Source: Streptomyces sp. NBC_00440
Lineage (GTDB): Bacteria > Actinomycetota > Actinomycetes > Streptomycetales > Streptomycetaceae
Direction: 5' to 3'
NCBI RefSeq assembly: GCF_036014215.1
Contig: NZ_CP107921.1
Location: forward strand, 6,631,501-6,695,500
Length of the DNA: 64,000 bases
Shown in pieces: positions 9,801 through 28,353 of this stretch; position 1 is the stretch's first letter, and each line of letters begins with the position of its first letter. The position numbers and the translations under genes are program-made. A model generated the notes under the pieces. The model was not told where the DNA came from and made no database searches. It saw only the letters and a program-made list of their open reading frames with translations.

Positions 9801-9985
9801 CCGCGCGGCGGACAACCCGCACATCGGACGCCCGGCCGGGACACTCCCGCGCCGGGCTCCCGTGCGTCCCGTACGCCGAACGGGTGACGTACGACGCACC
9901 GCCCGATGACGACTGTCCCGGATGGAACATTAGACTCGACAGACCCGGCAAAGCTCGATCACAGTTCGAACGCAAGGAGGCACGG

Positions 9986-12071: not shown

Positions 12072-13547
12072 GTGAGCACCAGTCTCTTCCGGACGAAATC
12101 CGTGGAGCAGTCGATCCGGGACACGGAGGAACCGGAGCACGCACTCAGGAAAACGCTGTCCGCACTGGATCTGACGGTCTTCGGTATCGGGGTCGTCATC
12201 GGTACCGGGATCTTCGTCCTGACCGGTCTGATCGCCAAGGAGACTGCGGGCCCCTCGGTGGCGCTGGCCTTCGTGGTGGCCGGTGTCGTCTGCGCCCTTG
12301 CGGCTCTCTGTTACGCAGAGTTCGCGTCCACGGTGCCGGTCGCGGGTTCCGCCTACACCTTCTCGTACGCGTCGCTCGGTGAGCTGCCGGCCTGGATCAT
12401 CGGCTGGGACCTGGTCCTCGAACTCGCCCTGGGCTGTGCGGTGGTGGCGGTCGGCTGGTCCGGATATGTGCGCTCACTGATGGACACGGCCGGGATCGGT
12501 ATGCCGCAGGTCCTCTCCGGGACGCATAACGGCAAGTTCGGCTTCGATCTGCTGGCGGCCATCCTGGTCCTGGTGCTGACCGGAATCCTGGTCCTGGGGA
12601 TGAAGCTCTCCTCGCGCGTGACGACGATCATCGTGGCCGTGAAGGTCACCGTGGTCCTGCTGGTGATCATTGTGGGCGCGTTCTACATCACCGGATCGAA
12701 CTACCACCCCTTCATCCCGCCGACCGTGAAGGGTTCGGCAGGCAGCAGCCTCAGCGCCCCGCTCGTACAGCTCTTCGGGTTCGCGCCCGGCTCCTTCGGT
12801 GTGATGGGCATCTTCACCGCGGCCGCCGTCGTGTTCTTCGCCTTCATCGGCTTCGACATCGTCGCGACCGCGGCCGAGGAGACCCGCAATCCGCAGCGCG
12901 ACGTGCCGCGCGGCATCCTCGGCTCGCTGGCGGTCTGCACCGTGCTGTACGTGGCGGTCTCGATCGTCGTCACCGGGATGCAGAAGTACACCCAGCTGTC
13001 CACGGACGCCCCGCTCGCCGACGCGTTCAAGTCGGTCGGACACCCCTTCTGGGCGGGCGTGATCAGCTTCGGCGCGGCCGTCGGCCTCACCTCCGTCTGT
13101 ATGATCCTGCTGCTCGGCCAGAGCCGGGTCTTCTTCGCCATGAGCCGTGACGGACTGCTGCCCAAGGTCTTCTCGCGGGTGCACCCAAGGTTCGGTACGC
13201 CCTACCGCTCCACGATCCTGCTCGGTCTGATCGTGGCGCTGGTGGCGGGCTTCACCTCGATCAGCGTGCTCGCCGACCTGGTCAATATCGGGACGCTGTT
13301 CGCGTTCGTCCTGGTGGCTGTCGGAGTCATCATCCTGCGCCGGCAGCGCCCGGATCTGCCGCGCGCTTTCCGGACCCCGCTCGTGCCGCTGGTGCCCATC
13401 CTCTCGGCGCTCGCCTCGTTCTGGCTGATGCTGAACCTGCCGGCCGAGACCTGGATCAGGTTCGGTATCTGGATGGTCGTCGGCGGTGTCGTGTATGTCT
13501 GGTACGGGCGCGGGCACAGCCGGATGTCCGAGCGGGCGCAGAAGTAG
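12072..13547 (+). CDS. APC-family amino-acid permease
   Basis: Amino-acid/polyamine/organocation transporter (491 aa) of the YfnA/cationic-amino-acid-transporter-like type, with about 12 membrane segments beginning near residue 33. The TM1 glycine motif (GIGVVIGTGIFVLTG) and the FFAFIGFDIVATAAEETRNP block of TM6 are typical. Substrate cannot be read from sequence. GTG start with GGAGG at 7 bases. It is monocistronic between two hairpins (11946-11986 and 13551-13567). Confidence 0.88.
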   Translation: MSTSLFRTKSVEQSIRDTEEPEHALRKTLSALDLTVFGIGVVIGTGIFVLTGLIAKETAGPSVALAFVVAGVVCALAALCYAEFASTVPVAGSAYTFSYASLGELPAWIIGWDLVLELALGCAVVAVGWSGYVRSLMDTAGIGMPQVLSGTHNGKFGFDLLAAILVLVLTGILVLGMKLSSRVTTIIVAVKVTVVLLVIIVGAFYITGSNYHPFIPPTVKGSAGSSLSAPLVQLFGFAPGSFGVMGIFTAAAVVFFAFIGFDIVATAAEETRNPQRDVPRGILGSLAVCTVLYVAVSIVVTGMQKYTQLSTDAPLADAFKSVGHPFWAGVISFGAAVGLTSVCMILLLGQSRVFFAMSRDGLLPKVFSRVHPRFGTPYRSTILLGLIVALVAGFTSISVLADLVNIGTLFAFVLVAVGVIILRRQRPDLPRAFRTPLVPLVPILSALASFWLMLNLPAETWIRFGIWMVVGGVVYVWYGRGHSRMSERAQK

Positions 13548-13659: not shown

Positions 13660-14706
13660 ATGTCGTCGCGTTCCGTACAGGCCGCAGGCCCCGCCACGAG
13701 CTGCTGGCTGCTGCGGGGCAAGGACGGCAGCCTCAGCGCCTACGCCCCGGCGGACGGCGGTCTGCTCCGCTGGACCGAACAGCGGCCCGGCGGGCCCGAC
13801 TGGACGGGGCCGGATTTCATCGAGGCCCCCGGTCTCACCCACGCCACCCTGGCCCAGGGCCCGGACACCTATGTCCATCTGATCACCCGGCGCACCACCG
13901 CCAAGGGTGTCGAGCTGATGCACACGACGCAGTACCAGACGGGCCGGCCGTTCGGCCCCTGGCACTCCCTCGGCAATCCGCACAAGGAGGAGGACCGCGC
14001 CCGCGCGGTCGGGGTCCCGGCGGCGGCGGTCGCCGACGACGGCCGGGTTCATGTCTTCGTACGCAACGCGGCCGGCGGCGTCAGCCTGCGCAGACAGGGC
14101 AAGTCCGGCAAGTGGGAGGGGTGGAAGGACCTGAAGGGCAGTCACCTCCTGGACGGGATGCCCGCGGCGGTCGCCGTCGGCGGCCGGGTCGAGCTGCTGG
14201 TCCCCGCCGATGAGCAGCTGTCGCGCTGGTGCCAGGAGGAGCCCGGGGGCGACTTCACCGAAGCCGAACCGTTCACCGCCACGGCCGCCGCCGGATCCGT
14301 CACCGGGCTGTGCACGGCGGACGACCGCGCCACGTACTACGGCTGCGCACCCGGCGGCGCCGGGGTGACCGCGCACCGCCGGGGGACCGGAGCCCTGGCG
14401 CTGGGCGGCGCGCCGGACGGCGGTCCGGTGGCGGTGCTGCGCACCTCCATAGAGGGCTATGACTGCACGGTCCTCGCCCACCGCGCCAGGAACGGCCGCC
14501 CGGCCATCGCGGCCTGCCCGACCGAGGGCGAGGCGGACGGCCTGTGGTGGACGGAGACCGGCGAGCCGTCGGTCGGCGCGCCCGCGCTGGCGGTGGACGC
14601 GGAGGGGCGGGTGGTGCTCGCCGCCATCGCCGGGGACGGCACCCTGCGGGTGGCACGTCAGAAAGCGGAACCGGGCCTCGCACTGGCGGCATGGACCAGG
14701 GCCTGA
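13660..14706 (+). CDS. Beta-propeller (lectin-like) protein, paralogue of the gene at 16211
   Basis: 348-residue protein built of repeated beta-sheet blades (WLLRGKDGSLSAYAP, TYVHLITRR, GRVHVFVRNAAGGVSLRRQ, GRVELLVPADEQLSRWC, GTLRVARQ), the look of tachylectin/PLL-like or fucose-lectin propellers. No signal peptide and no membrane segment are evident. The segment QYQTGRP-x-GPWHSLGNPH recurs almost unchanged in the C-terminal domain of the gene at 16211, so the two are duplicates. They flank an LCP-family ligase, suggesting a role at the cell surface, but function is unknown. The start at 13660 is chosen for its GAGGGAAGG; an in-frame ATG at 13606 would add 18 residues. Confidence 0.7.
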   Translation: MSSRSVQAAGPATSCWLLRGKDGSLSAYAPADGGLLRWTEQRPGGPDWTGPDFIEAPGLTHATLAQGPDTYVHLITRRTTAKGVELMHTTQYQTGRPFGPWHSLGNPHKEEDRARAVGVPAAAVADDGRVHVFVRNAAGGVSLRRQGKSGKWEGWKDLKGSHLLDGMPAAVAVGGRVELLVPADEQLSRWCQEEPGGDFTEAEPFTATAAAGSVTGLCTADDRATYYGCAPGGAGVTAHRRGTGALALGGAPDGGPVAVLRTSIEGYDCTVLAHRARNGRPAIAACPTEGEADGLWWTETGEPSVGAPALAVDAEGRVVLAAIAGDGTLRVARQKAEPGLALAAWTRA

Positions 14707-14776
14707 ACTGCCGTTCCTGCGGCAGGTGGTACCGGATGACAGCCGGAAACGGCGGTCCCGTGGCCGGCTCCACGGA

Positions 14777-14831
14777 CTGATTTCCGGCACCGCCCCTCGA
14801 ATTCGCCGAAACGGGGCCGTGCCGGAATCAG
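14777..14831. terminator. Bidirectional terminator between convergent propeller and LCP genes
   Basis: CTGATTTCCGGCAC (14777-14790) pairs with GTGCCGGAATCAG (14819-14831) with one bulged T, and the stem continues through CCCC/GGGG. It serves the convergent genes ending at 14706 and 14863. A second small hairpin (CTGCCG/CGGCAG) sits at 14708-14725. Confidence 0.7.
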
Positions 14832-14862
14832 AACCGGTCCGTACGGAGCCGGACCAAAGCGG

Positions 14863-15924
14863 TCAACCGCCGTGCGCCGGTGACTTCTTGGCCGACTCGG
14901 GGATCTCCGTGTCCGTGTGGATGGCCTTCCACAACTGCGTGGCCTGTGGCTCGGCCGCCACCACCCGGTTGGGGTCGGCCTTGTCGTACGCCACCGGGAG
15001 CATGATCGTCTCCATGGTGTCCGGGTTGACGCCCTTCATGCTGCGGGCGAACTCCGCCAGCTTGGTGAGCGACGCCAGATCCGAGTCGGTGGTCAGCGAC
15101 TTGGTCGCGGAGTTGGCGATCTTGTACGTCTTGGTGGGGCTGCTCAGCACGTCCTGCTTCTGCACCTCGCTCAGCAGGTCGAGCAGGAACTGCTGCTGGA
15201 GCCCGATCCGGCCCAGGTCGCTGCCGTCGCCTATGCCGTGCCTGGTCCGTACGAACTCCAGCGACTGGGTGCCGTTCAGCTTCTGCGGGCCCGCCTTGAG
15301 GTTGAGGCCGCTGGCCCCGTCGTGGATGTCCTGCGGGACATCGACGGTGACCCCGCCGAGCGCGTCCACGAGGCCCTTGAATCCGGCGAAGTCGACCTCC
15401 ATGTAGTGGTCGATCCGTACGTGGGACATCTGCTCCACGGTCTTCACCACACAGGCCGGACCGACCTGCGAGTAGACCGAGTTGAACATGACCCGGTTCG
15501 CGGAAGGCACCGACGAGCCGTCCGACTTGGCGCACTCGGGCCGGGTCACCAGGGTGTCGCGCGGGATGCTGACCGCGGTCGCCCTGCTGCGCCCCTCGGG
15601 CACGTGGATCACCAGCGCGGTGTCGGAGCGGGCGCCGCTGACGTTGCCGCCGGCTATCTTCCCGTTCTCCCCGGCGCGGGAGTCGGAGCCGAGCACCAGC
15701 AGGTTCTGTCCGGTGGTGGGCAGCTTCTCCGGACGGTCCTTGCCGAGCGACTTGTTGATGTCGACGCCCTTGATGTTGCCGTTCAGGTTGCTGTACAGCC
15801 ACCATGCGGTTCCGCCCGCGGCGAGCAGCAGCACCAGGAGTACGAGCAGAGCGATGCGGAGCCCACGACGGCGCTGCCGGGGGGCTTTGCGCGAGTGGGG
15901 CGGTGTGGTGGTGGCCTGAGTCAT
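14863..15924 (-). CDS. LytR-CpsA-Psr (LCP) family wall glycopolymer ligase
   Basis: 353-residue membrane-anchored LCP protein. A basic cytoplasmic tail (RKAPRQRRRG) precedes one membrane segment (residues 23-45); the LCP domain (about 70-250) faces outward. Conserved pieces: NLLVLGSDSRAG, SDTALVIHVPE, SIPRDTLV, FNSVYSQVG and the Arg-rich FVRTRHGIGDGSDLGR loop that binds the polyprenyl pyrophosphate head. LCP enzymes transfer teichoic-acid-like polymers from lipid carrier to peptidoglycan; the TagB/TagF- and TagC-like genes 2-9 kb away offer a plausible substrate pathway. Start ATG with AGAGGA upstream. It is divergent from the propeller-fusion gene, sharing a 286-base promoter region with GTGTGCGT repeats. 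Confidence 0.9.
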   Translation of the reverse strand: MTQATTTPPHSRKAPRQRRRGLRIALLVLLVLLLAAGGTAWWLYSNLNGNIKGVDINKSLGKDRPEKLPTTGQNLLVLGSDSRAGENGKIAGGNVSGARSDTALVIHVPEGRSRATAVSIPRDTLVTRPECAKSDGSSVPSANRVMFNSVYSQVGPACVVKTVEQMSHVRIDHYMEVDFAGFKGLVDALGGVTVDVPQDIHDGASGLNLKAGPQKLNGTQSLEFVRTRHGIGDGSDLGRIGLQQQFLLDLLSEVQKQDVLSSPTKTYKIANSATKSLTTDSDLASLTKLAEFARSMKGVNPDTMETIMLPVAYDKADPNRVVAAEPQATQLWKAIHTDTEIPESAKKSPAHGG

Positions 15925-16080
15925 GCCGTAGTTGTCCTCTGATCCCGGTAATCGGCTTTGTGGCGGGGTGACGACCGCGTCTGGCATGGGGGGACTGGCG
16001 GTCGGTCGAGTGCGACAGCGCGAAAAAAGGGGGGCGTCGTTGCCGCCGGTTTCGATTGGCACCAGAGCATATAGGCAAAT

Positions 16081-16118
16081 GTGTGCGTCTTGTGTGCGTC
16101 TATCGTGCTGGTGTGCGT
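16081..16118. repeat. Three GTGTGCGT direct repeats in a divergent promoter region
   Basis: GTGTGCGT occurs at 16081, 16092 and 16111, the first two exactly one helical turn apart. They lie between the divergent LCP gene and the PIG-L/propeller gene and could bind a regulator controlling both. Confidence 0.45.
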
Positions 16119-16210
16119 AAGAGCCTGACGGGCGGCCACCCGGCCGGAGGCCGTCCAGCAGGCTCAGGGGCGGGAACCGCGGATTCCGCGGCGGAAGGAG
16201 CGACAGCGCG

Positions 16211-17782
16211 ATGGTGGCATCAACCGGGCCCCGTGCCGAGGAGTACGGGCGGGACCCGCGGCCCGCGGAGTCTGCCGGGGCCCGGCGGGAGGCGGGCGCC
16301 GTCCTGCTCGTCGCGGCCACACCCGCCGACGCGGCCGTCCTGCTCGCCGGCGCCAGCGCCGGCGGTCCCGGCGAGGTCGCCGTGGTCTGCCTGGAGAGCG
16401 GGGGACCGCAGGAGCGGCAGATGTTCGACCGGGCCGTGTCCGACGCCGTACGGCAGGGCCGGCGGGTCCGGGGCGAGCCGCGCGTCCTCGCGTCACGTGG
16501 CGACGGTACGCAGGCGGTCCTGGGCGAACTCCGCGCCGTACGACCGGCGGTGGTCCTCACTACCGGCCCCGACGCACCCTCGGGAACTCCCGCCGGGGAC
16601 CCCGGTACGGAGCAGCGCCGCACCGCAGCCGCGAGCGCCGCTCTCCGGGCGGCCGATGCCTACCAGCGCGAGAGCGGGCAGCCGCTTCTCGTCGACTGCC
16701 GGGAGGCGGCGCCCACCGACGCCGTCGGCCCGGTGCTCCGCCCCCGATACGCGCCGCCGGGCACCTGGCTGATCAGGGGCAACGACGGCCGTCTCTCCGG
16801 CTATCTGCCCACGGCCGGGGCGGTGCTGCGCTGGACCGAGGGCGTGACCGGCGGGTGGTCGGGCCCCGAACGGCTGGAAGCCCCGGGCCTGTTGCCCGGG
16901 CTGACCGTGGTGCAGGGGCCGGACGGCTACGTACGCCTCGTCGGTCTGCGCCGTACCGAAGGCCGCGGTGGCGCGGTCACCGTCGACGTCGTGTGCGCGA
17001 CCCAGTACCAGACGGGGCGCCCGGCCGGGCCGTGGCACTCGCTGGGCAATCCGCACCGCGCCGAACCGGAGCGGGGCCGCCATGTCGGTTTCCCCGTGGC
17101 CGCGTTCGACGACGACGGGACGCTCCATGTCTTCATCCGCAACGACGAGCACACCGTGAACACCCGCCACGAGAAGCCCAATGGGTCGTGGTCGTCCTGG
17201 CAGCATCTGCGCGGCGCCAAGACCGCGGACGAGCTGGTGGCCCTCCGGGTGCCGGACGGCAGGGTGGAGCTCTTCGCCCGGCTGCGGGACGCCCCCGGGA
17301 CGGCGCGCTGGAGCCGGACGGGGCGCGACGGCGCCTGGGCCGAGGACACCGGCTCCAACGTCCATGCGGCCGCGGACAGTCTGGCTCCCGCGCCGGAGAG
17401 CGGAGCACTGCGCTACCGGTACGCGGGGACCGGCGAGCTCTGCCAGTGGCAGTGGAACGCCCCGGGCCCCGTGACGCTGCACAGCTCCGATGCCATGGGA
17501 AGGGTCGCCGGTGCGACCGGTGCCGACATCGGCGGCTGGGCCTGTACCGTGCTCGTCTCGACCGACGCGTACGGGTACTGCCTGGCCGGTTTCCATGTCG
17601 ACGGACGGCCCGATTCCGGTGTGTGGTGGTCGAGTACGGAGCAGTGGTGCCTCGTTCCGCCCGCCCTCGTCCGGGACCGGCTCGGCCGGATCACGATCGC
17701 CGCGCTGGGGCCCGATGCCCGGCTCGCCGTCACGCGGCAGCTGCCCGGCGGGCAGGGGCTGGATCTCGCCCCCTGGGCCTAG
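16211..17782 (+). CDS. PIG-L-like domain (catalytically degenerate) fused to beta-propeller
   Basis: 523-residue two-part protein. Residues about 27-170 resemble the PIG-L/LmbE deacetylase fold (AVLLVAATPADAAVLLAGAS, VAVVCLESGG, LGELRAVRPAVVLTTG), but the zinc motif PHPDDE is replaced by ATPADA and the later His-containing motif is also missing, so deacetylase activity is unlikely. Residues 175-523 are a beta-propeller closely related to the protein at 13660 (shared QYQTGRP-x-GPWHSLGNPH). No clear signal peptide is visible. AAGGAG lies 10 bases before the ATG. PIG-L plus propeller fusions exist in Streptomyces; the loss of the active site suggests a binding or scaffold role. This is inference. 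Confidence 0.72.
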   Translation: MVASTGPRAEEYGRDPRPAESAGARREAGAVLLVAATPADAAVLLAGASAGGPGEVAVVCLESGGPQERQMFDRAVSDAVRQGRRVRGEPRVLASRGDGTQAVLGELRAVRPAVVLTTGPDAPSGTPAGDPGTEQRRTAAASAALRAADAYQRESGQPLLVDCREAAPTDAVGPVLRPRYAPPGTWLIRGNDGRLSGYLPTAGAVLRWTEGVTGGWSGPERLEAPGLLPGLTVVQGPDGYVRLVGLRRTEGRGGAVTVDVVCATQYQTGRPAGPWHSLGNPHRAEPERGRHVGFPVAAFDDDGTLHVFIRNDEHTVNTRHEKPNGSWSSWQHLRGAKTADELVALRVPDGRVELFARLRDAPGTARWSRTGRDGAWAEDTGSNVHAAADSLAPAPESGALRYRYAGTGELCQWQWNAPGPVTLHSSDAMGRVAGATGADIGGWACTVLVSTDAYGYCLAGFHVDGRPDSGVWWSSTEQWCLVPPALVRDRLGRITIAALGPDARLAVTRQLPGGQGLDLAPWA

Positions 17783-17831
17783 TTGGGCCAGGTCCGGGCG
17801 TCCGGCGGCTCGCGGGGGCGGCCAAAACCTG

Positions 17832-17850
17832 CCGGTACGTAACGTACTGG
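17832..17850. promoter_or_regulatory. Inverted repeat GTACGT-A-ACGTAC upstream of the TagB/F-like gene
   Basis: A perfect 6+6 repeat around one base, extended by CC/GG pairs, 50 bases after the propeller-fusion gene and about 200 bases before the next start. Directly after it is a TTGTCC ... TATTCT promoter-like pair (spacing 19). It could be an operator or a short terminator. Confidence 0.4.
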
Positions 17851-18044
17851 TGTCTTGTCCGTAACCTGGTTCCGGGTACTATTCTGACCCAAGGTAAAGC
17901 TCAGGTTAACGTTTTGGGTGGGTCCCCTGAAGCTTTGCCGTCACTGTGGTGCCGCTTTTGCGTCCGCGCTCTGTCGCGCACGCATGCCCTGGGGGGGGAA
18001 ATGCGGGTCCGGGTGTGCGTTTCGACGATGAGAAGAGGACGAGA

Positions 18045-20198
18045 TTGATAGCCGCACTGATCCGCCATGCCGAAATAGGCAAGGGCAAGAACGTTCTTGT
18101 CCTGTTCCTGCTGCTGGCAAGCTACTTCGGCATGCTGGTCTCGGGCGCCCTCGGTCTCCTCTGGGCCTTCACTGCAACCCTGGTCCTCAGCTACGCGACC
18201 GACTTCTACCTGCACCGCGCCGAACCCGACCTGATCCGCTTCCTCGGCAAGCTCAAGTGGGGCCTCAGCATCCGTGTCCTGACACGGGAACTCGGCGTGC
18301 TGGTGCTGCTGCGGGACACCGTCGGCGACGACCGCGACATCTTCACGGTGGTCTTCCTCGGCTTCGCGGCCGTGCACTCACTGCGCCTGCTGTACACGTT
18401 CCTCTGCATGTTCATCAAGCGGCGCCGCGCCCTCCCGGTGCGCGTGCGCAACCTGGATCTCAGCGCCCTGAACATGCCGGAGCCGCCGCCCCCGATCGCC
18501 TTCAAGTCCTACGAGCGGAAGCTGCTTCACCTGGACAGTGCGGTCATCGCCGGCGCCATCGCCTCCCGTGCCACACATGTGATCGGCTTCAGCGTCCTCG
18601 GCGGCGCGCTCGCGGTGACCGTCGCCGTTCTCGGCATGGTGATCCTGCTGCCGACCATCAGGCAGTGCCGCCGGGTGCCCAGCCACGAGCGCACCTTCCG
18701 CATCCTGAACAAGCAGGTCGCCAAGTACCGCCCCGAGGTCGTCCTTTACTTCACCTACGCGGCCGGCGCGCGCGACTCCGCCTACCAGGTCAACATGTGG
18801 CTGGACACTCTCTCCCGGCTCGGCAGGCGGCCGTTGATCGTGCTCCGCGAGGTCACCACCCTGCGCTTCCTCGCGTACACCTCGCTGCCGGTCGTCTGCC
18901 TCCCGAAGGCCGATGACCTCAGCCTGCTGGAGCTGCCCGAGGTCCGGGTGATCCTCTATCCGGCGAACGCGGGCAAGAACGTCCACATGCTGCGGGTGGC
19001 GGAGGCCAAGCACGTCTTCATCGGACACGGCGACAGCGACAAGCTGGCCAGCAGCAACCGGGTGAGCAAGGTCTACGACGAGATATGGACGGCGGGCCAG
19101 GGCGGCGAGGAGCGCTACCAGCGGCTGCGCGGCACCATCCCCGGCTCCGCCCTCGTGCCGGTCGGCCGCCCGCAGCTCAGCGCGGTCGAGTCGGTCTCGG
19201 CCCGGCCGGGCGGCCGGATGACCACCGTGCTGTACGCGCCCACCTGGGAGGGGTGGACGGCCGACCCGTTCCACACCTCGCTCATCCTGATGGGCGAGAA
19301 GCTCATCCGGATGCTGCTGAACCAGCAGGAACCGGTCCGGATCCTCTACAAGCCGCACCCGTTGACGGGCAAGCGGTCGGCCGAGGCGACCCGGGTGCAC
19401 CGGCGCATCGTGGCTCTCCTCGACGCCGACAACGCCAAGCGCGACCGCACCAAGGACGGCCGGAGTTCCCGCGCCTCGCAGGCGGACGGCGACAAGAAGC
19501 TGGCCGGCCTTGAGAGCCGGATGGCCCGGCTGAAGGCATGGACCGTGGTCGGGGTCTACGGCCTCTGGCACAAGGACAGGTCCGTGCTCGCCCGGCCGCC
19601 GAAGGAGACCTGGGAGGAGTTGCAGACCCAGTGGCACGAGACCTTCTGGGCCGCGGGCGGCGGTGAGCGCCACCAGGTGGTCACCGGGCAACTCCCGTCC
19701 CTCTACAGCTGTTTCAACGAAGCCGACATGCTGATCAGTGACATCTCCAGCGTCGTGTCCGACTTCGTGGCGAGCGAGAAGCCGTACGCGGTGTCGAACC
19801 CGTCCGACTCGGACCCCGAGCTCTTCAAGCAGCTGAACCCGGCGGCGTCCGCCGCGTACATCCTCGGCCCGGCCTGCGAGGAGCTGGCCGTCTGCGTCGA
19901 CGCCGCACGCTCCGGCGGCCGGGACCGGCTGGCCGGTCACCGGGAGCACCTCAAGCGCTATCTGCTCGGCGACGGGGACTCCATGGTCCGCTTCAACGAT
20001 GCGGTGAACCAGTTGTTCGCGCGGGGCATCGCGGAATTCCCGGCCGGGGACACCGCGGAGCCGATCCTCGCCAACCCGTTCACGCAGGGGGCCGCCGCGG
20101 TACCGGACCAGCTGCTGGAAAACACCGCGCCCATGCCGCAGTTGGGGTGGATCGGGCAGCAGCTCGGGCCGCAGGAATCGATGGAACAGTACTTCTGA
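18045..20198 (+). CDS. TagB/TagF-like CDP-glycerol glycerophosphotransferase family membrane protein
   Basis: 717-residue enzyme. The N-terminal third contains two pairs of membrane segments (about residues 18-55, 95-125, 165-200); the C-terminal part has the glycosyl-/glycerophosphotransferase fold: FIGHGDSDK, VLYAPTWEGW, YKPHPLTG and ISDISSVVSDF, matching the TagF family K-x-HP and D-x-SS motifs. Family members build poly(glycerol-phosphate) or related wall polymers from CDP-glycerol. The canonical HGTxxK loop reads GHGDSDK here. The TTG start is preferred because AGAAGAGGACGAG precedes it and the membrane segment begins soon after; a GTG at 18015 is an alternative. It leads a presumed operon with the SGNH, Ig-like and GT2 genes. 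Confidence 0.82.
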   Translation: MIAALIRHAEIGKGKNVLVLFLLLASYFGMLVSGALGLLWAFTATLVLSYATDFYLHRAEPDLIRFLGKLKWGLSIRVLTRELGVLVLLRDTVGDDRDIFTVVFLGFAAVHSLRLLYTFLCMFIKRRRALPVRVRNLDLSALNMPEPPPPIAFKSYERKLLHLDSAVIAGAIASRATHVIGFSVLGGALAVTVAVLGMVILLPTIRQCRRVPSHERTFRILNKQVAKYRPEVVLYFTYAAGARDSAYQVNMWLDTLSRLGRRPLIVLREVTTLRFLAYTSLPVVCLPKADDLSLLELPEVRVILYPANAGKNVHMLRVAEAKHVFIGHGDSDKLASSNRVSKVYDEIWTAGQGGEERYQRLRGTIPGSALVPVGRPQLSAVESVSARPGGRMTTVLYAPTWEGWTADPFHTSLILMGEKLIRMLLNQQEPVRILYKPHPLTGKRSAEATRVHRRIVALLDADNAKRDRTKDGRSSRASQADGDKKLAGLESRMARLKAWTVVGVYGLWHKDRSVLARPPKETWEELQTQWHETFWAAGGGERHQVVTGQLPSLYSCFNEADMLISDISSVVSDFVASEKPYAVSNPSDSDPELFKQLNPAASAAYILGPACEELAVCVDAARSGGRDRLAGHREHLKRYLLGDGDSMVRFNDAVNQLFARGIAEFPAGDTAEPILANPFTQGAAAVPDQLLENTAPMPQLGWIGQQLGPQESMEQYF

Positions 20199-20248
20199 CC
20201 TGTGTTCCGGCCTGCGGGCGGTGACACGATCCGATGGAGGGTACGGCG

Positions 20249-21064
20249 ATGTACGGGCAGGAGATGCCTCGCAGACGGATGTTCGTCACGGGCGATTCCA
20301 CGGTGGTGACGCGCTCCGTCGACTACCTCCCGATGGCCGGCTGGGGGCAGACGCTCCCGCTGTTCCTCGGCCCGGCGGTGGAGGTCATCAACTGTGCGCG
20401 GGCGAAGGCGAGTTCCAGGAGCTTCTACGACCGGGGCCGCTTCCAGTGGATCCTCGAACGGGCCGCCCCCGGTGACTACGTGCTCATCAGCTTCGGCCAG
20501 GTCGACTGGGAGCCGGCGGACGGCCTGCACACCGAGCCCTTCGAGGCGTACCAGCAGTACTTGCGGCAGATGGTGCACCTCACCAGGGAGGCGCAGGCGC
20601 ACCCCGTCCTCGTACTCACCCACGAGCGGCGCAAGTTCGACGCGTACGGCAATCTCCGGCGCTTCCTGCGCACCTACCCGATGGCCGTGCGGGAGGTCGC
20701 GGAGGAGATGTCTGCACCCCTCGTCGACCTCTACGCCCAGAGCCTGGCCTGGTGGGAGGAGCTCGGCAGCGACGCCGCCAAGGAGCTCTTCGCGCATCTG
20801 CGGCCTTACGAGAACCCCGTCGCCAATCTCAAGGGCGCCGACGACACCCACCTCCGCGCCGAGGCGGCGGTGGAGTGCGCGCGCTTCATCGCCCGCGCCC
20901 TGCGGGACCAGGGGCTCGTCCCCGCGTCCTGGGTGCACAGCCTCGACCGGTCGGACTTCACCACCGACGAGATGGGCTGGCTGGACACCGCGACGTTCGA
21001 CCGGCTGACCAAGGAGCGAGTGGCACAGGTGCCGGACGCGGCGCGGATCGGAGCCGGGCGATGA
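20249..21064 (+). CDS. SGNH-type hydrolase, rhamnogalacturonan acetylesterase-like
   Basis: 271-residue SGNH/GDSL fold protein without signal peptide. Block I is FVTGDST with the candidate nucleophile Ser near residue 15; block V DDTHL gives the Asp-His pair (about residue 201). Block III reads GQVDW, lacking the usual oxyanion-hole Asn. Family members remove acetyl groups from polysaccharides, so it could edit the acetylation of the polymer made by its neighbours. GGAGG lies 8 bases before the ATG at 20249. Its stop codon overlaps the next start (ATGA). Confidence 0.75.
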   Translation: MYGQEMPRRRMFVTGDSTVVTRSVDYLPMAGWGQTLPLFLGPAVEVINCARAKASSRSFYDRGRFQWILERAAPGDYVLISFGQVDWEPADGLHTEPFEAYQQYLRQMVHLTREAQAHPVLVLTHERRKFDAYGNLRRFLRTYPMAVREVAEEMSAPLVDLYAQSLAWWEELGSDAAKELFAHLRPYENPVANLKGADDTHLRAEAAVECARFIARALRDQGLVPASWVHSLDRSDFTTDEMGWLDTATFDRLTKERVAQVPDAARIGAGR

Positions 21065-21888
21065 CCTTCCTGCTGGGCGTGGTCCGCATCCAGGAACCGG
21101 GCTTCCCGGACAGCGCGACCCAGGCGGCCGTGCACTGCGACGCGCACCCCATGACCTCCGTCGCTCCCGGGCAGACCGTCCGGATCGCCCTGACGGTCCA
21201 GGCGGGACCGGGCATCGGACATGCCTACGGCTACCTCGCCGAGGACTCCTTCGCCGGGGCCGCGGACGTGGTGGCGGTCCAGGGCGCCGAGTACTCCTCC
21301 CTCCTGCGGCACTACCGGTCCCGCGCCGAGAGCGGCGGTTCGGAGAGCGCCGTCCTGACCCTGCGGATCCGCCAGGACAGCACGGAGCACGTGCTGCGTC
21401 CGGCGGTCTCCGCCGCCATCCCCGGCCGGGACCCCCGCAGGCTCCTGCGCACCGAACCACTGGCCGACCTGGGGGTGCGGATCAGGGGCTTCTCCGCCCC
21501 CGGCCGCGCCCTGAACGTCTCCGAGCACGCCGCGTACGCGCCCGCGCTCGTCGATGTACGGGACGGCCTGCCGCAGGGCACGGTCGTGGTGGGACACAGC
21601 CAGCCGCGCTCCGGGCAGGTGACCGTCACCCACGACGGTGTGCTGGCCTTCCAGGCGGCTCCGGGCGCGGTGGGCTACGACCACTTCCAGTACGCCGTGC
21701 AGTCGCCGTCGGGGGAGCGGGCCGAGGGCCGGGTGGTCATCCACATCGGTGATCTCTCCGAAACCCCGGGGCTGCTGACCCCGCCCGGCTTCAACGGGGC
21801 CGGCACCACCGCGCACGCGCCGTGGACCCAGCCGAAGATCCACGGTCCGCTGCCCTGGCCGCACGAGGGCGCAGCCCTCCCCGGCTGA
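21061..21888 (+). CDS. Ig-like/cadherin-like domain protein coupled to the SGNH hydrolase
   Basis: 275 residues, no enzyme family recognised. Residues about 165-230 form a bacterial Ig/cadherin-like repeat (VVGHSQPRSGQVTVTHDG, LAFQAAPGAVGYDHFQYAV). No signal peptide or membrane anchor is visible, although such domains are normally extracellular. The ATG overlaps the SGNH gene stop by four bases, so the two proteins are probably made in equal amounts and may act together. Confidence 0.65.
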   Translation: MTFLLGVVRIQEPGFPDSATQAAVHCDAHPMTSVAPGQTVRIALTVQAGPGIGHAYGYLAEDSFAGAADVVAVQGAEYSSLLRHYRSRAESGGSESAVLTLRIRQDSTEHVLRPAVSAAIPGRDPRRLLRTEPLADLGVRIRGFSAPGRALNVSEHAAYAPALVDVRDGLPQGTVVVGHSQPRSGQVTVTHDGVLAFQAAPGAVGYDHFQYAVQSPSGERAEGRVVIHIGDLSETPGLLTPPGFNGAGTTAHAPWTQPKIHGPLPWPHEGAALPG

Positions 21889-21931
21889 CCCGCGCCCCCG
21901 CTCGCACCACCCCCGTACGCAATGAAGTCTG

Positions 21932-23548
21932 GTGATCAGCGTCGTGAACCCCGTGTCCCTCCACCCCAAGGAACAGCCCGACGTCAGCGTGATCGTCGAC
22001 GTGGCCGACGCCGTCGGCCGGATCGGCGGCTGCCTCGAATCGGTGCTGGCGCAGGGCGATGACGGATTCCTGGTGGAGGTGCTGGTCCTCGACCGCGGCT
22101 CCCAGGACGGCACCCGCGAGACGCTCCAGCAGTGGGCGGCCCGGTACCCGGCGCTGAAGTGCTCCTCGTCGCCCACCACGACGGACACTCCGGCACAGGC
22201 GCGCAACGCGGGCATCGAGCAGGCCACCGGCCGCCATCTCCTGTTCCTCAGCGGTACGGACCGGCTCGCCCCCGGCGCGCTGAAGAGCATGGTGCGGGCA
22301 GCCGACGAGAACGACGCCGATGTCGTCCTCGGCAAGGTGGCGGGCCTGGACGGGCAGAAGGTCGGCACGTCCATGTTCACCCGGAGCGTGGCCGACGCCG
22401 ATGTCGCGGCCTCACGCGTGTACTGGTCGCTGAGCGCCGACAAGCTGTTCCGCCGTTCGCTGGTCGACCGCTGCGGTCTGCGCTTCCCCGACGACTGGTC
22501 CCTCGGTGAGGACCAGGCGTTCACCGCGCTGGCCTATCTGTACGCGGACCGGATCTCGGTCGTCGCCGGCCAGGTCTGCGTCGAGCAGGCGCGCCGGGTC
22601 GCCGGGGTGAACACCTCGCGGTTCAGCGGTTCTCTCGCCGACCGGATGGCGCTCACCCGCCGGATGGTCTCCCTCGTCACGGAACGGGTCCAGCCGGGCC
22701 CCCTCCGGGACCAGCTGCTCGCCCGCCACTTCGAGCTGGAACTCGGCAAGGCCACCGGGTCCGCCTATCTGGCTTGCGAGGATCACGAGTTGCGCCGGGC
22801 CGCGCTCACCGAGTGCCGTGGGCTGCTCGAACTCCACGCGGGTCCCGAGGTGTTCCGGAAGCTGCCCCGGCCGCTCTCGGTACGCCTGGAGCTGATCCGC
22901 CGGGGCCTGTTCGCCGAGGCCGAGCGGATGATCGCGTTCGAGCAGGGCAAGGAGAAGGCCGCGCTGCTCGTGGAGGAGGGGCGGGCGTTCCGCCGGTACC
23001 CGTTCTTCCGGGACCCCGAACTGGGGCTGCCCGACGAGTACTTCGAGATCACTCACACCTTGCGGGCCAAGCACCGGCTGACCGGGCTGAGCTGGTCGGG
23101 CACCGTGCTCAGTGTGCACGGCCACTGCTACATCGAGCAGTTGTCCACCCGCGATCCTGCCGTCCGCGTGGTGCTGCGCGAGCGGGCGAGCGGCGCCGAG
23201 TACCGCTTCCGCGTCTACTCCACGCCCACCCCCAAGCTGGACGCCGCCACCCGTGCCGACCGTGCGCAGGCCGGGTTCGAAGCGCGGCTCGACCTGTCGG
23301 CCGCCGACGGTTCCCAGCCCGTCGCCCCCGGGCTCTGGGACATGTTCCTGCACGTCTCCTACCAGGGAGCGGGCAAGGAGGTACGGCTCGGCGGGACCCG
23401 TGCGGACACGGTCACCGACCGGACGCGGCAGGGTGTCGTGGTCGGCCGGGCGGACGCGTCAGGGCTGGAGACGGTCTGCCACCTCTACGCCACGAAGGCC
23501 GGGAACCTCACCGCCGAGGTCTCCGCGAGGCGCCCGCTGCCGCAGTGA
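21932..23548 (+). CDS. Family-2 glycosyltransferase with large C-terminal region
   Basis: 538-residue GT-A type transferase. Residues about 14-125 carry the GT2 core (PDVSVIVDVADA, EVLVLDRGSQDGT, AQARNAGIEQATGRHLLFLSG). The metal-binding DxD position reads SGTD instead of the usual DSDD, so activity may be altered. The following 400 residues (SADKLFRRSLVD, ending in a beta-rich part) resemble the C-terminal region of wall-polymer glycosyltransferases linked to TagB/F proteins in actinomycetes. GTG 21932 is used; a GTG at 21944 is also possible and neither has a strong ribosome site. It lies 43 bases after the Ig-like gene and is convergent with the TagC-like gene. Confidence 0.76.
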   Translation: MISVVNPVSLHPKEQPDVSVIVDVADAVGRIGGCLESVLAQGDDGFLVEVLVLDRGSQDGTRETLQQWAARYPALKCSSSPTTTDTPAQARNAGIEQATGRHLLFLSGTDRLAPGALKSMVRAADENDADVVLGKVAGLDGQKVGTSMFTRSVADADVAASRVYWSLSADKLFRRSLVDRCGLRFPDDWSLGEDQAFTALAYLYADRISVVAGQVCVEQARRVAGVNTSRFSGSLADRMALTRRMVSLVTERVQPGPLRDQLLARHFELELGKATGSAYLACEDHELRRAALTECRGLLELHAGPEVFRKLPRPLSVRLELIRRGLFAEAERMIAFEQGKEKAALLVEEGRAFRRYPFFRDPELGLPDEYFEITHTLRAKHRLTGLSWSGTVLSVHGHCYIEQLSTRDPAVRVVLRERASGAEYRFRVYSTPTPKLDAATRADRAQAGFEARLDLSAADGSQPVAPGLWDMFLHVSYQGAGKEVRLGGTRADTVTDRTRQGVVVGRADASGLETVCHLYATKAGNLTAEVSARRPLPQ

Positions 23549-23559
23549 CGGCGGGGCGC

Positions 23560-23635
23560 GGGTCTGTCACACGGTCTGTCACAGGGGTCTGTCGCACGGG
23601 TCTGCCACACGGGTCCTTCACGCGGCTCCCTCAAG
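23560..23635. repeat. Degenerate tandem repeat (GGTCTGTCACAC-like units) between convergent genes
   Basis: About five imperfect copies of a 13-16 base unit (GGTCTGTCACAC, GGTCTGTCACAG, GGTCTGTCGCACG, GGTCTGCCACACG, GGTCCTTCACGCG) fill most of the 108 bases between the GT2 and TagC-like genes. No conventional terminator hairpin is seen here. Confidence 0.6.
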
Positions 23636-23656
23636 CCGGTCCTCCCCGCGGATCTC

Positions 23657-24688
23657 TCACACCCTGCCGCACGAGTGGATCGCCAGCATCCTGGCCCGCG
23701 AGCTGCCGGTAGCGAAGCCCACACAGAGCCGGGGGCCGCCCGTCAGCCTGACGGCGAGCCCTTCCGGCTCCCGGTAGGCGAGGTCCGCCGCCACGGTGAT
23801 CCGTCGCGGAGCGGGGACCTGGCCACCCCGCAGGCCGACCGCGGTGACCCGGGCATTGCCCCCGGAAACGGCCGGGTTGGCGCCGGACGACGGTGTGTAC
23901 GCGTTGCCCGCGAGCTGGTACACCCGGTCCCCGTACAGCACACACCCCTGGAACGTCTCGGCCGCAGCCCGTCCCCGCTGGCGCACCGTGTGCAGCGGCT
24001 CGTAGCGGCCCGCGAGGAAGTCGGCCATGCCGTACACCGCGTACCACTGCTGCCGTCTCCCGTACGCCGGGACCGTCCAGTAGCTCACCATCACCCGCCG
24101 CGCGGTCATGTCGACACTGGGCTGGTTGGCCACTGAGCCGGGCACCGGGCGGTGGTGGCGCAGTCCGGGGTGGTCGCTGTCGAGCACAGCGCCGTCCCGG
24201 AACGCGAACCGGGTGATGGCCTGTCCGTACCCGGTCTCCGGGTGGGCCTGCGACTCCGTCCAGAGGAGCGCGCCGGACGCCGACGGCTCGACCCCGAGGG
24301 AGACACCGTGGCCGAACCCGCGCAGGAACATATGGCCGCGCGTCCGCCCGTCCGCGGACAGCCGCGTCACACAGAGATCGCCCCGCTTGTCCCGCTCCGC
24401 GCTCGACAGCCGGCGCGGCTCACCCGGAAGCCGCATACCGCCCTGGACCAGCTGCACCGCGTAGATGTCGCCCCGGCTGTCGTCGAAGGCGAACGACTGG
24501 GGCACCGTGGTCTGGTGCAGCGCGGTGGGGGCCAGGATCTGCGAGGGGTCCGCCGCCTCGAACGTGCCGTCCCCGTGCGCCCGTTGTTCCGCATACCACC
24601 GGCCGCCGGCCAGGCCACCGGCCGCGGCCGCCGCCGAGACGCCCGCCCACAGCGCGGTCCTGCGTGAGTACTTCCGCTGCCGTTCCAC
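23657..24688 (-). CDS. TagC-like secreted protein (teichoic acid biosynthesis protein C family)
   Basis: 343-residue exported protein. The N-terminus (RKYSRRTALWAG then an Ala/Gly-rich hydrophobic stretch) is a twin-arginine-type signal. The mature part has the repeated beta-structure of the family annotated as TagC in actinomycetes: PQSFAFDDSRGDIYAVQLVQ, GDLCVTRLS, FGHGVSLGVEPS, LLWTESQAHP, YREPEGLAV. The biochemical role of this family is not established. The GTG at 24688 has GGGGAG 10 bases upstream. It is convergent with the GT2 gene; grouping with the TagB/F-like gene supports a wall-polymer role. Confidence 0.8.
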   Translation of the reverse strand: MERQRKYSRRTALWAGVSAAAAAGGLAGGRWYAEQRAHGDGTFEAADPSQILAPTALHQTTVPQSFAFDDSRGDIYAVQLVQGGMRLPGEPRRLSSAERDKRGDLCVTRLSADGRTRGHMFLRGFGHGVSLGVEPSASGALLWTESQAHPETGYGQAITRFAFRDGAVLDSDHPGLRHHRPVPGSVANQPSVDMTARRVMVSYWTVPAYGRRQQWYAVYGMADFLAGRYEPLHTVRQRGRAAAETFQGCVLYGDRVYQLAGNAYTPSSGANPAVSGGNARVTAVGLRGGQVPAPRRITVAADLAYREPEGLAVRLTGGPRLCVGFATGSSRARMLAIHSCGRV

Positions 24689-24868
24689 GAACCGAATTGC
24701 TCCCCAGCGTCCGCCGACCGGCAGGTACTCGACTCCCAACCCCCACGAACCCGGGGAAAGGTCATTTTGTCACACCACGACCGCGGGCCCTCAACGGCGA
24801 GTGCCCGCCCCGGGACGACCGGGACGGGCACTCGCACGAAGGGGCTCCGGACTGCGGGAGCCCGCGGG

Positions 24869-27001
24869 TCAGGCCGGAACGCTCGCCACACCCTGCGCGA
24901 GGAACGGCTTGCCGTTCACCCGCTGCGACACACCCTCACGGTCCAGGTACGGCGTGATGCCGCCGAGGTGGAAGGGCCAGCCGGCGCCGGTGATCAGGCA
25001 GAGGTCGATGTCCTGGGCCTCGGCCACGACACCCTCGTCCAGCATCAGACCGATCTCCTGCGCCACCGCGTCCAGGACACGGTCCCGGGTCTGCTCGGCG
25101 GAGAGCACCGACGTGCCCTGCTTGAGGAGTGCGGCGACCTCCGGGTCCAGCTCGGGCGTGCCCGACTCGTAGACGTAGAAGCCGCGCTTGCCCGCCTTGA
25201 CGACGGCGGCCAGGTTCTCCGAGACGGTGAAGCGCTCGGGGAAGGCGCGGTGCAGCGTCTCCGAGACGTGCAGACCGATGGCCGGGCCGACCAGTTCGAG
25301 CAGCACCAGCGGGGACATCGGGAGACCGAGCGGCTCCACGGCCTTCTCGGCGACCTCGACGGGGGTGCCCTCGTCGATGACGTTCTGGATCTCGCCCATG
25401 AAGCGGGTGAGGATGCGGTTGACGACGAACGCCGGGGCGTCCTTCACCAGGACCGCGGTCTTCTTCAGCTTCCGCGCCACGCCGAACGCCGTGGCCAGCG
25501 AGGCGTCGTCGGTCTGCTCGCCGCGCACGATCTCCAGGAGCGGCAGGATCGCGACCGGGTTGAAGAAGTGGAAGCCGACGACCCGCTCGGGGTGCTTCAG
25601 CTTCGACGCCATCTCGGAGACCGACAGCGAGGAGGTGTTGGTGGCGAGGATCGCGTGCGCCGGGGCGACCGCCTCGACCTCCGCGAACACCTGCTGCTTG
25701 ACGCCGATCTCCTCGAAGACCGCCTCGATGATGAAGTCGGCGTCCGCGAAGCCCTCGGCCTTGTCGAGTACACCGCTCACCAGAGCCTTGAGGCGGTTGG
25801 CCTTGTCCTGGTTGATACGGGACTTCAGCAGCAGCTTGTCGATCTCGGCGTGCACATAGCCCACACCCTTGTCGACGCGCTCCTGGTCGATGTCGGTGAG
25901 CACCACCGGCACTTCGAGGCGGCGCAGGAAGAGCAGCGCCAGCTGCGAGGCCATCAGACCGGCGCCGACGACGCCGACCTTGGTGACCGGGCGCGCCAGG
26001 TTCTTGTCCGGGGCGCCGGCCGGGCGCTTGGCACGCTTCTGGACCAGGTTGAACGCGTAGATGCCGCTGCGGAGTTCGCCGCCCATGATCAGGTCGGCCA
26101 GCGCCTGGTCCTCGGAGTCGAAGCCCCGGTCCAGGTCGCCGTCCTTGGCGGCGGCGATGATGTCCAGCGCGCGGTAGGCGGCCGGGGCCGCGCCGTGCAC
26201 CTTCGAGTCGGCGATGGCCCGGCCGCGCGCGACCGCAGCGTCCCAGGCGTCGCCGCGGTCGATCTCCGGGCGTACGACCTCGATCTCGCCGCGCAGGACG
26301 GCGGAGGTCCAGATCAGCGACTGCTCCAGGAAGTCCGCGCCCTCGAAGATCGCGTCGGCGATCCCCAGCTCGTAGACCTGCTTGCCCTTCAACTGACGGT
26401 TCTGGTTCAGCGAGTTCTCGATGATGACCGAGACCGCGCGGTCCGCGCCGATCAGGTTGGGGAGCAGCGCGCAGCCGCCCCAGCCCGGTACCAGGCCGAG
26501 GAAGACCTCGGGGAGCGCGAAGGCGGGCAGCGACTTGGTCACCGTGCGGTACGCGCAGTGCAGACCGACCTCGACGCCACCGCCCATCGCGGCGCCGTTG
26601 TAGTACGCGAAGGTGGGGACGGCCAGCGTGGACAGCCGTTTGAAGACGTCGTGGCCGCCCTTGCCGATGGCGAGCGCGTCCGAGTGGTTCTTCAGCAGCT
26701 CGACGCCCTTGAGGTCGGCGCCGACCGCGAAGATGAACGGCTTGCCGGTGATTCCTACACCGACGACCGTGCCCTCGGCGGCCTCCTTCTCGACCTGGTC
26801 GATGGCGGCGTCGAGGTTCGCCAGCGACTGCGGGCCGAAGGTGGTCGGCTTGGTGTGGTCCAGGCCGTTGTCGAGCGTGATCAGCGCGAACCTGCCCGCG
26901 CCGCCCGGCAGTTCGAGGTGGCGTACGTGCGCCTGTGTGACGACCTCGCCGGGGAACAGCTCGGCCGCGCCCTTCAGGAGATCGGAGGTGGTGGTGCTCA
27001 C
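24869..27001 (-). CDS. fadB: Fatty-acid oxidation complex alpha subunit (enoyl-CoA hydratase / 3-hydroxyacyl-CoA dehydrogenase)
   Basis: Bifunctional beta-oxidation enzyme, 710 aa. The hydratase/isomerase domain (about 1-300) shows GADLKGVE, GAAMGGGVEVGLH and PEVFLGLVPGWGG, carrying both catalytic Glu residues. The dehydrogenase part begins near residue 330 with the NAD motif VGVVGAGLMAS, contains LATNTSSLS and the catalytic-His segment VGFHFFNPV, and ends with the C-terminal dehydrogenase repeat. The GTG start overlaps the stop of the upstream thiolase gene by four bases, giving a thiolase-FadB operon. Gene symbol by analogy with the E. coli fadB. Confidence 0.93.
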   Translation of the reverse strand: MSTTTSDLLKGAAELFPGEVVTQAHVRHLELPGGAGRFALITLDNGLDHTKPTTFGPQSLANLDAAIDQVEKEAAEGTVVGVGITGKPFIFAVGADLKGVELLKNHSDALAIGKGGHDVFKRLSTLAVPTFAYYNGAAMGGGVEVGLHCAYRTVTKSLPAFALPEVFLGLVPGWGGCALLPNLIGADRAVSVIIENSLNQNRQLKGKQVYELGIADAIFEGADFLEQSLIWTSAVLRGEIEVVRPEIDRGDAWDAAVARGRAIADSKVHGAAPAAYRALDIIAAAKDGDLDRGFDSEDQALADLIMGGELRSGIYAFNLVQKRAKRPAGAPDKNLARPVTKVGVVGAGLMASQLALLFLRRLEVPVVLTDIDQERVDKGVGYVHAEIDKLLLKSRINQDKANRLKALVSGVLDKAEGFADADFIIEAVFEEIGVKQQVFAEVEAVAPAHAILATNTSSLSVSEMASKLKHPERVVGFHFFNPVAILPLLEIVRGEQTDDASLATAFGVARKLKKTAVLVKDAPAFVVNRILTRFMGEIQNVIDEGTPVEVAEKAVEPLGLPMSPLVLLELVGPAIGLHVSETLHRAFPERFTVSENLAAVVKAGKRGFYVYESGTPELDPEVAALLKQGTSVLSAEQTRDRVLDAVAQEIGLMLDEGVVAEAQDIDLCLITGAGWPFHLGGITPYLDREGVSQRVNGKPFLAQGVASVPA

Positions 27002-28227: not shown

Positions 28228-28353
28228 GATGGCTCTCCTCCAGGGTGCGGGATGGCACTGCTGCTGCGGGCGCGCCGGAGCGCGCTGCACAAGGCCATGC
28301 TACCCACGGGTAACCATGCTGCCCAGTCCCTGGGCCGGGAGCGTCGTAGGTCA

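Follow-up and report, generated by a model that had tools for sequence, protein, structure and literature searches.

Gene content between fadBA and the permease

The window analysed here, a stretch of 64,000 nucleotides from Streptomyces sp. NBC_00440 (G000:C1:6631501-6695500, on a chromosome which is Streptomyces-like), carries between the beta-oxidation genes fadBA and an amino-acid permease gene a group of genes which, to judge by their sequences, most likely serve to make a teichoic-acid-like polymer and to fix it to the cell surface. Gene models were made from codon-position GC, lists of open reading frames and Pfam and NCBIfam profiles. The interval has a conserved frame, formed on the right by dxs (9884-11908) and the permease (12072-13547, plus strand; PF13520 3e-55, PF13906), and on the left by fadB (24869-27076, minus strand; PF02737/PF00378) and fadA (26998-28290, minus strand). 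Counted from the permease, the genes encode the propeller protein PROP1 (after 112 bp), an LCP glycopolymer ligase (156 bp), a degenerate PIG-L-like domain joined to a second propeller (286 bp), a TagF-like protein (163 bp), an SGNH hydrolase-like protein (35 bp), an Ig-like protein whose gene overlaps the preceding one by 4 bp, a TarS-like GT2 glycosyltransferase (43 bp) and Prop5, with a five-bladed propeller domain (108 bp), and a further 129 bp separate the last gene from fadB. An earlier note on this DNA had named these families, the PIG-L-like domain excepted, with the LCP ligase framed by two propellers between permease and beta-oxidation genes and with a four-base coupling of the SGNH and Ig genes, and the gene models, profiles and coordinates agree with it on all these points.

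The LCP protein (14863-15924, minus strand, 353 amino acids) scored 184 bits against TIGR00350 (1.9e-54; cut-off 62.3) and 155.8 bits against PF03816 (1.2e-45). It has a single N-terminal transmembrane segment at residues 22-40 and the motifs RSDT, SIPRDT and FVRTRH, and it was aligned by sequence to TagV/TagT structures, including 3nxh/TagV. The domain, the membrane segment and the Arg/Asp motifs are those of a glycopolymer ligase, and a role in polymer transfer is predicted. The TagF-like polyol-phosphate polymerase (17946-20198, plus strand, start codon uncertain) matched PF04464 (1.7e-7) with 31 bits, above the gathering score of 22.1. Membrane-like helices at its N-terminus and an inserted helical stretch accompany a GT-B part, and the motifs GHGDSDK, YKPHP and SDISS are present. 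Residues H361, H471, D599, S601 and S602 were invariant in 43 aligned rows, and the SDxSS pattern is conserved; we infer that H361 and H471 correspond to the catalytic histidines of TagF. A Foldseek search with the model of the protein found TagF (3l7l) with an E-value of 4.8e-7 and a TMq of 0.31. Having the domain, the histidines and the GT-B architecture of TagF/TarL enzymes, the protein is a predicted polymerase.

The SGNH protein (20234-21064, plus strand; PF13472 4.4e-10) matched 2o14/1deo by sequence, and neither a signal peptide nor a transmembrane segment was seen in it. Its serine was kept in all 26 rows, the window gene being counted among them, and the last histidine was changed to glutamine in L115 and L024. 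The Ig-like protein (21061-21888, plus strand) matched PF17963. In L117 a single protein combines an SGNH domain (PF13472) with an Ig-like one (PF19077, just under the cut-off), which fits the idea that the products of the overlapping window genes work together. For the GT2 protein (21932-23548, plus strand; PF00535, and PF22181 for the TarS linker) the best structural matches by sequence were 5tze and 5tz8, which we take to be TarS of Staphylococcus aureus; 5tze had an E-value of 3.6e-24, with EDQ aligned (GEDQ at residue 192). The window protein shares with S. aureus TarS a GT-A domain over about 245 residues and the linker, and glycosyltransferase activity is predicted. It differs in being much diverged, in a weak C-terminal match (PF18674, 0.042), and in that SGTD replaces the DXD motif of a TarS-type wall teichoic acid glycosyltransferase. 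None of the 14 other GT2s more than 40% identical to it had DXD, the first aspartate being kept in two (L028 and L030), and the aspartate of the EDQ region was kept in 12 of the 14, with Glu in L018 and Gly in L013. The GT2s beside other TagF paralogues, the own genome included, mostly have DADD. The DXD-less GT2s of TagF-type cassettes could be metal-independent, changed or inactive enzymes.

The two propellers beside the LCP gene belong to one family (precomputed domain PF26607). PROP1 (13660-14706, plus strand), on the permease side, gave a weak FG-GAP match, has no signal peptide that could be seen, and is 40% identical by tblastn (L001 row) to the product of 16211-17782 (plus strand), of whose C-terminal part it is a relative. 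The AlphaFold model of this second, cassette-side protein (pLDDT 87.3) matched 6fhy best in Foldseek (E-value 6.9e-17, TMt 0.77), and ranks 1-22 were all PLL/PHL entries, with TMt 0.72-0.77 at 17-21% identity. These are lectins of Photorhabdus with a seven-bladed fold. The window propeller has their fold in the model and may bind sugars; it differs from them in being fused to a PIG-L-like domain. In that N-terminal domain ATPADA replaces the AHPDDD or AHQDDD of three relatives, and no Pfam family was found for it, so that both the HPDD-type motif and the profile match of a PIG-L de-N-acetylase are lacking. A hydrophobic stretch at residues 28-46 forms a strand and a helix of this domain in the model and was not taken as a signal peptide. 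PIG-L domains with an intact motif were seen in the propeller-cluster proteins L137:572-2608, L107:15957-17927 and L106:574-2541, where the Pfam score is above the cut-off. Prop5 (23657-24739, minus strand; PF21311 5.1e-10) has an N-terminus which by eye is Tat-like (SRRTALW), is the sole PF21311 match in its own genome, and resembles phage tail proteins weakly, also in PHROGs. The earlier name, a TagC-like exported protein, depends for its TagC part on PF21311, NCBIfam being silent, and among 14 control genomes PF21311 matched in B. subtilis only, where the match may be TagC.

Variation of the site among streptomycetes

The site was surveyed by anchoring on fadB in 101 genomes of the genus, of which 100 matched; six with fadB at or near a contig end were skipped, and 93 stretches of up to 18.5 kb were fetched. 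Complete intervals, meaning stretches that reached the permease or dxs, numbered 87 and measured 0.5-17.4 kb, with a median of 3.6 kb. All 37 intervals longer than 6 kb contained a polymer cassette. The classes are coarse, having been set from gene clusters after inspection of the intervals, with families assigned by Pfam on cluster representatives: three TagF-SGNH-Ig-GT2 sets as in the window, one TagF-TarIJ-Stealth set, eight Stealth sets, eight with a large GT2 and CDP-alcohol transferase or NAGPA-type genes, two with a membrane GT2, three GT2-TagF fusions and one more together with a poly-glutamate set, two with polysialyltransferase/NeuB, and nine poly-gamma-glutamate-like sets alone. Outside the genus but in the same family, one of 20 stretches (L194) had cassette matches, judged by homology to the cassette queries only, and the intervals of some of the others measured 9-13 kb.

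An LCP gene like that of the window was present with 27 of the 28 glycopolymer cassettes, with none of the nine poly-glutamate-only sets, and at seven of the 59 loci without a glycopolymer cassette (27/28 against 7/59, Fisher 5.7e-15). In 13 independent pairs on a tree of the flanking genes, eight agreed with this association, none disagreed and five had no difference in LCP (p = 0.0078). The presence of LCP with glycopolymer cassettes and its absence from poly-glutamate sets suggest that the role of LCP at this site is to attach glycopolymers and that it is dispensable for the poly-glutamate sets. The poly-gamma-glutamate-type cassettes without LCP are L088, L089, L118, L126, L133, L140, L156, L165 and L167, and L128, with a set of this type, has LCP together with another cassette. 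Representatives of the poly-gamma-glutamate clusters matched CapC, PGA_cap, a Mur-ligase domain, NlpC/P60 and HAMP, not every gene being found at each locus. L131 and L162 have polysialyltransferase, NeuB and DUF6716, the latter locus also a NeuA-like cytidylyltransferase, and a sialic- or nonulosonic-acid polymer is a possible product.

The flank tree was built with FastTree from DXS, the permease and part of FadB of 86 stretches and the window. With content divided into ten states, 'none' and 'LCP only' among them, 35 changes were needed on this tree, against a minimum of 9 and a mean of 42.3 for shuffled states; the 37 cassette rows alone needed 18. Twenty-six close pairs had flank identity above 0.945 and different content, nine of them cassette against cassette and 17 cassette against none, with some members shared between pairs. 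In all 26 the left homologous block ended within -4 to +143 bp of the end of the fadB match. In the 24 pairs that were readable on the other side, the block covering the permease started at LCP or within it, in the space separating LCP from the permease, or in the first bases of the permease, and homology between close relatives continued through the permease and dxs. Some pairs had shorter or weaker blocks within the interval (LCP, propeller), and in the pairs inspected closely the cassette-side propeller lay inside the replaced segment. L103 and L142 form a natural pair, with near-identical flanks and different cassettes. That the lectin sequence might track the cassette type was considered too and was not borne out: at flank identity of at least 0.9, mean identity of the cassette-side propeller was 0.47 for pairs of the same type (n=9) and 0.44 for pairs of different type (n=29), and the corresponding LCP values were 0.85 and 0.81. 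Rank correlation with flank identity was 0.51 for LCP, 0.29 for the cassette-side and 0.59 for the permease-side propeller, the pairs being non-independent.

Conserved flanks, variable polymer cassettes and content that differs in close relatives, as in a cps-like locus, are all found here, and the stretch is probably one allele of an exchangeable surface-polymer locus lying between fadBA and permease/dxs. If the site were instead a general insertion hot spot, where polymer genes stand by accident, its strongly varying length would be expected, and L151 and L161 have neither permease nor dxs within the fetched stretch, L151 also lacking a polymer cluster. Against such a hot spot, no complete interval above 6 kb is without polymer genes, and the same stretches, over 697 kb right of dxs, contained no match to the first query set, which did not cover every cassette cluster. 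The GC content of the cassettes, too, is within about 0.05 of that of the flanks, which makes exchange within the genus likelier than distant import, and tRNA prediction in the window gave a single hit, doubtful and lying past fadB at 28238-28310 (integrases and transposases were not searched for). A hot spot of this kind is very improbable.

The window gene set and its predicted product

To follow the distribution of the window gene set itself, named genomes were scanned with its TagF protein; at least 80 loci were found, with neighbours scored at an E-value of 1e-5. Streptomyces sp. NBC_01306 (L003) has a near-identical locus, 98-100% per gene. Among the loci listed, ten had fadB and the permease as frame and within it the full set of Prop5, TagF, SGNH, Ig, GT2 and LCP (L003, L004, L013, L014, L018, L023, L024, L025, L028 and L057). 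Three more (L029, L034 and L040, the last with no permease in its stretch) had fadB, Prop5, TagF, propeller and LCP without SGNH-Ig-GT2; L015 stops after TagF, and in L030 SGNH-Ig-GT2 lacks the frame. The remaining 65 listed loci had TagF, some with GT2, and no LCP, SGNH or Ig match in the fetched stretch. The recurrence of this gene group in other Streptomyces, with flanks of the same kind, is more than chance would give. In the 93 stretches of the survey TagF was accompanied by Prop5 in 5/5 and by LCP in 5/5 cases, Ig by SGNH in 10/10, and Prop5 never occurred without TagF. The earlier claim that the genes form one set is borne out to the extent that they travel together and with LCP; the expected conserved co-location in most genomes was not found, the window type being present at three of the 87 complete loci. 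The further idea that the island TagF-like proteins are a single lineage found no support, the island label needing two changes on the TagF tree, with long-branch warnings.

The relatives also bear on the nature of the polyol. In L004, L025, L115 and L142 TagF and SGNH are separated by a TarIJ-like gene, about 500 residues long, and Pfam on the L096 member of this cluster found IspD and short-chain dehydrogenase domains. The operon is directed with respect to fadB as in the window in L004, and oppositely in L025, L115 and L142. The TarIJ-like gene is absent from the 35-bp gap of the window and from the same place in the near relative L084 (genome G021). In the own genome there was one full-length TarIJ match, 73% identical, beside a TagF paralogue at the main teichoic-acid locus (G000:C1:2476000-2495900, where Obg, L27 and L21 were recognised by eye), and the other matches were single-domain. 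The TarIJ-like gene in four relatives and the similarity of the GT2 to TarS make ribitol phosphate a likelier polyol than glycerol phosphate, and the poly(glycerol phosphate) product proposed before is disfavoured by these neighbours, the TarS linker and the 5tze/5tz8 match.

A possible pathway can be drawn from these predictions. The membrane-bound TagF-like enzyme would make a polymer of polyol phosphate units, most likely of ribitol phosphate, with TarIJ of the main locus as the source of CDP-ribitol. Decoration or trimming of the polymer would fall to the TarS-like GT2 and to the SGNH-Ig pair, exported Prop5 and the PLL-fold propellers would bind it or its precursor, and LCP would transfer the lipid-linked polymer to peptidoglycan. 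In another view the cassette makes no separate polymer and adds decorations or branches to the main wall teichoic acid, as the utr genes of S. griseus add side chains to ribitol teichoic acid. The window set lacks TarIJ, and precursors would have to be shared with the main locus; furthermore, the GT2 resembles TarS, a likeness also stated for UtrC, and branching ribitol phosphate was reported in S. griseus (both in PMC13274773). On the other hand, the window cassette has a polymerase-like gene of its own, and the LCP of the site accompanies nearly every type of glycopolymer cassette, the Stealth and sialic-type sets, where TagF was not found, among them. Mere decoration of the main polymer is unlikely.

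The missing motifs and the missing TarIJ could also mean that the allele is decaying in the window lineage, having lost the precursor enzyme and the GT2 and PIG-L motifs, and yields little or no product. Such decay would account for the degenerate motifs in the GT2 and in the PIG-L-like domain, and for the absence of TarIJ from the window and L084 when L004 has kept it. However, the reading frames are open, those of L084 matching them at 86-96%, and the motif residues of TagF are intact. Moreover, DXD is absent from all 14 other GT2s, including those of the TarIJ-keeping L004, L025, L115 and L142, so that its loss is an old property of the cassette type. We regard decay as quite improbable.

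Several observations weigh against the reading as a functional exchangeable polymer locus. The TagF-like model matched UDP-GlcNAc 2-epimerases about as well as TagF, with TMq about 0.3, and a PF04464 search of the own genome at an E-value of 0.001 gave no match, which counts against TagF membership. The window SGNH protein lacks the usual block-III Asn, as placed by the block pattern we assume for this family; with a GT2 without DXD and a degenerate PIG-L-like domain, this makes the respective activities uncertain. The acetylation editing suggested in the earlier note found no direct support, the SGNH serine being kept and the block-III Asn missing. Ten LCP-domain matches in the genome mean that the window LCP need not be the sole ligase; at the site itself, the GT2 cassette of L132 has no LCP, and the seven LCP genes without a glycopolymer cassette are further exceptions. 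The propeller family, matched in 68 of the 93 stretches, was found also at 37 of the 59 loci without a glycopolymer cassette, and same-type pairs are scarcely more alike in their propeller, so that there is no sign of the propeller following the cassette type. Content type was clustered on the flank tree, none of 200 shuffles being as low as the 35 changes found, and is partly inherited yet often changed. Finally, no linkage-unit gene or exporter was recognised by Pfam and NCBIfam among the called genes of the interval, so that it lacks what a complete wall teichoic acid locus carries in its cluster. One WecG-family match was found in the whole genome, an exporter was not searched for genome-wide, and the linkage-unit and export functions would have to come from elsewhere.

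Relation to known polymer loci

Pneumococcal cps loci have conserved flanks and an exchangeable centre, for example between dexB and aliA. The Streptomyces site has in common with them the fixed position, the conserved flanks, unrelated cassettes in close relatives and an LCP-type ligase at the edge. It differs in that teichoic-type, Stealth, sialic-type and poly-glutamate-like sets alternate, with lectin-fold companions. To our knowledge no serology exists for it.

Within the genus, a close described counterpart is the utr/teichuronic-acid and wall teichoic acid locus of Streptomyces, reported for S. griseus, which lies beside the ribosomal L21/L27 genes (PMC13274773). TagF, TarIJ and TarS-like enzymes and a content that varies between species are common to it and the fadBA site. 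The two are nevertheless different sites: the window genome carries both, and the window genes are not adjacent to L21/L27. The terms SCO60, fadB and Stealth do not occur in the main text of that paper. The earlier note knew of no description of this gene combination as a system, and none was found in searches of open-access papers, which leave out most subscription papers; the same searches, with the same limit, yielded no description of an exchangeable capsule-like locus in Streptomyces.

Serotypes and phage ranges of other bacteria have their basis in capsule loci that are exchanged. Tentatively, the fadBA-dxs site could be a serotype locus of this kind, in which whole polymer classes (polyol phosphate, Stealth-kind sugar phosphate, polysialic-like and poly-gamma-glutamate) are swapped beside a generic LCP and lectin-fold partners, and which would set the binding of phages and umbrella toxins. 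S. ambofaciens and S. achromogenes are targets of umbrella toxins that have no utr polymer, and other surface receptors were inferred for them (Cell 2025, PMC13274773). A serotype locus would explain such utr-less targets, and fadBA-dxs is a concrete candidate for the origin of their receptors. Pairs with near-identical flanks and different cassettes, such as L103/L142, offer a natural comparison of the effect of the polymer.

In S. coelicolor we take dxs to be SCO6013 and fadB to be SCO6026, and by this numbering SCO6020, lying between them, is probably the LCP of the fadB-dxs site. It is among the LCP proteins in the table of a 2021 review, no polymer of its own being discernible for it there, and the ten LCPs of S. 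coelicolor other than PdtA are described in the review as without severe phenotype (PMC7831098). The cassettes of the site suggest substrates for this orphan LCP, provided that this numbering holds.

Beyond the interval, the fadB match contained one or two internal stop codons in G004, G063, G007, G113, G130, G133 and G134. In the window, fadA is adjoined by a gene (28409-32065) for a GH35 beta-galactosidase of 1218 amino acids with an NPCBM domain.

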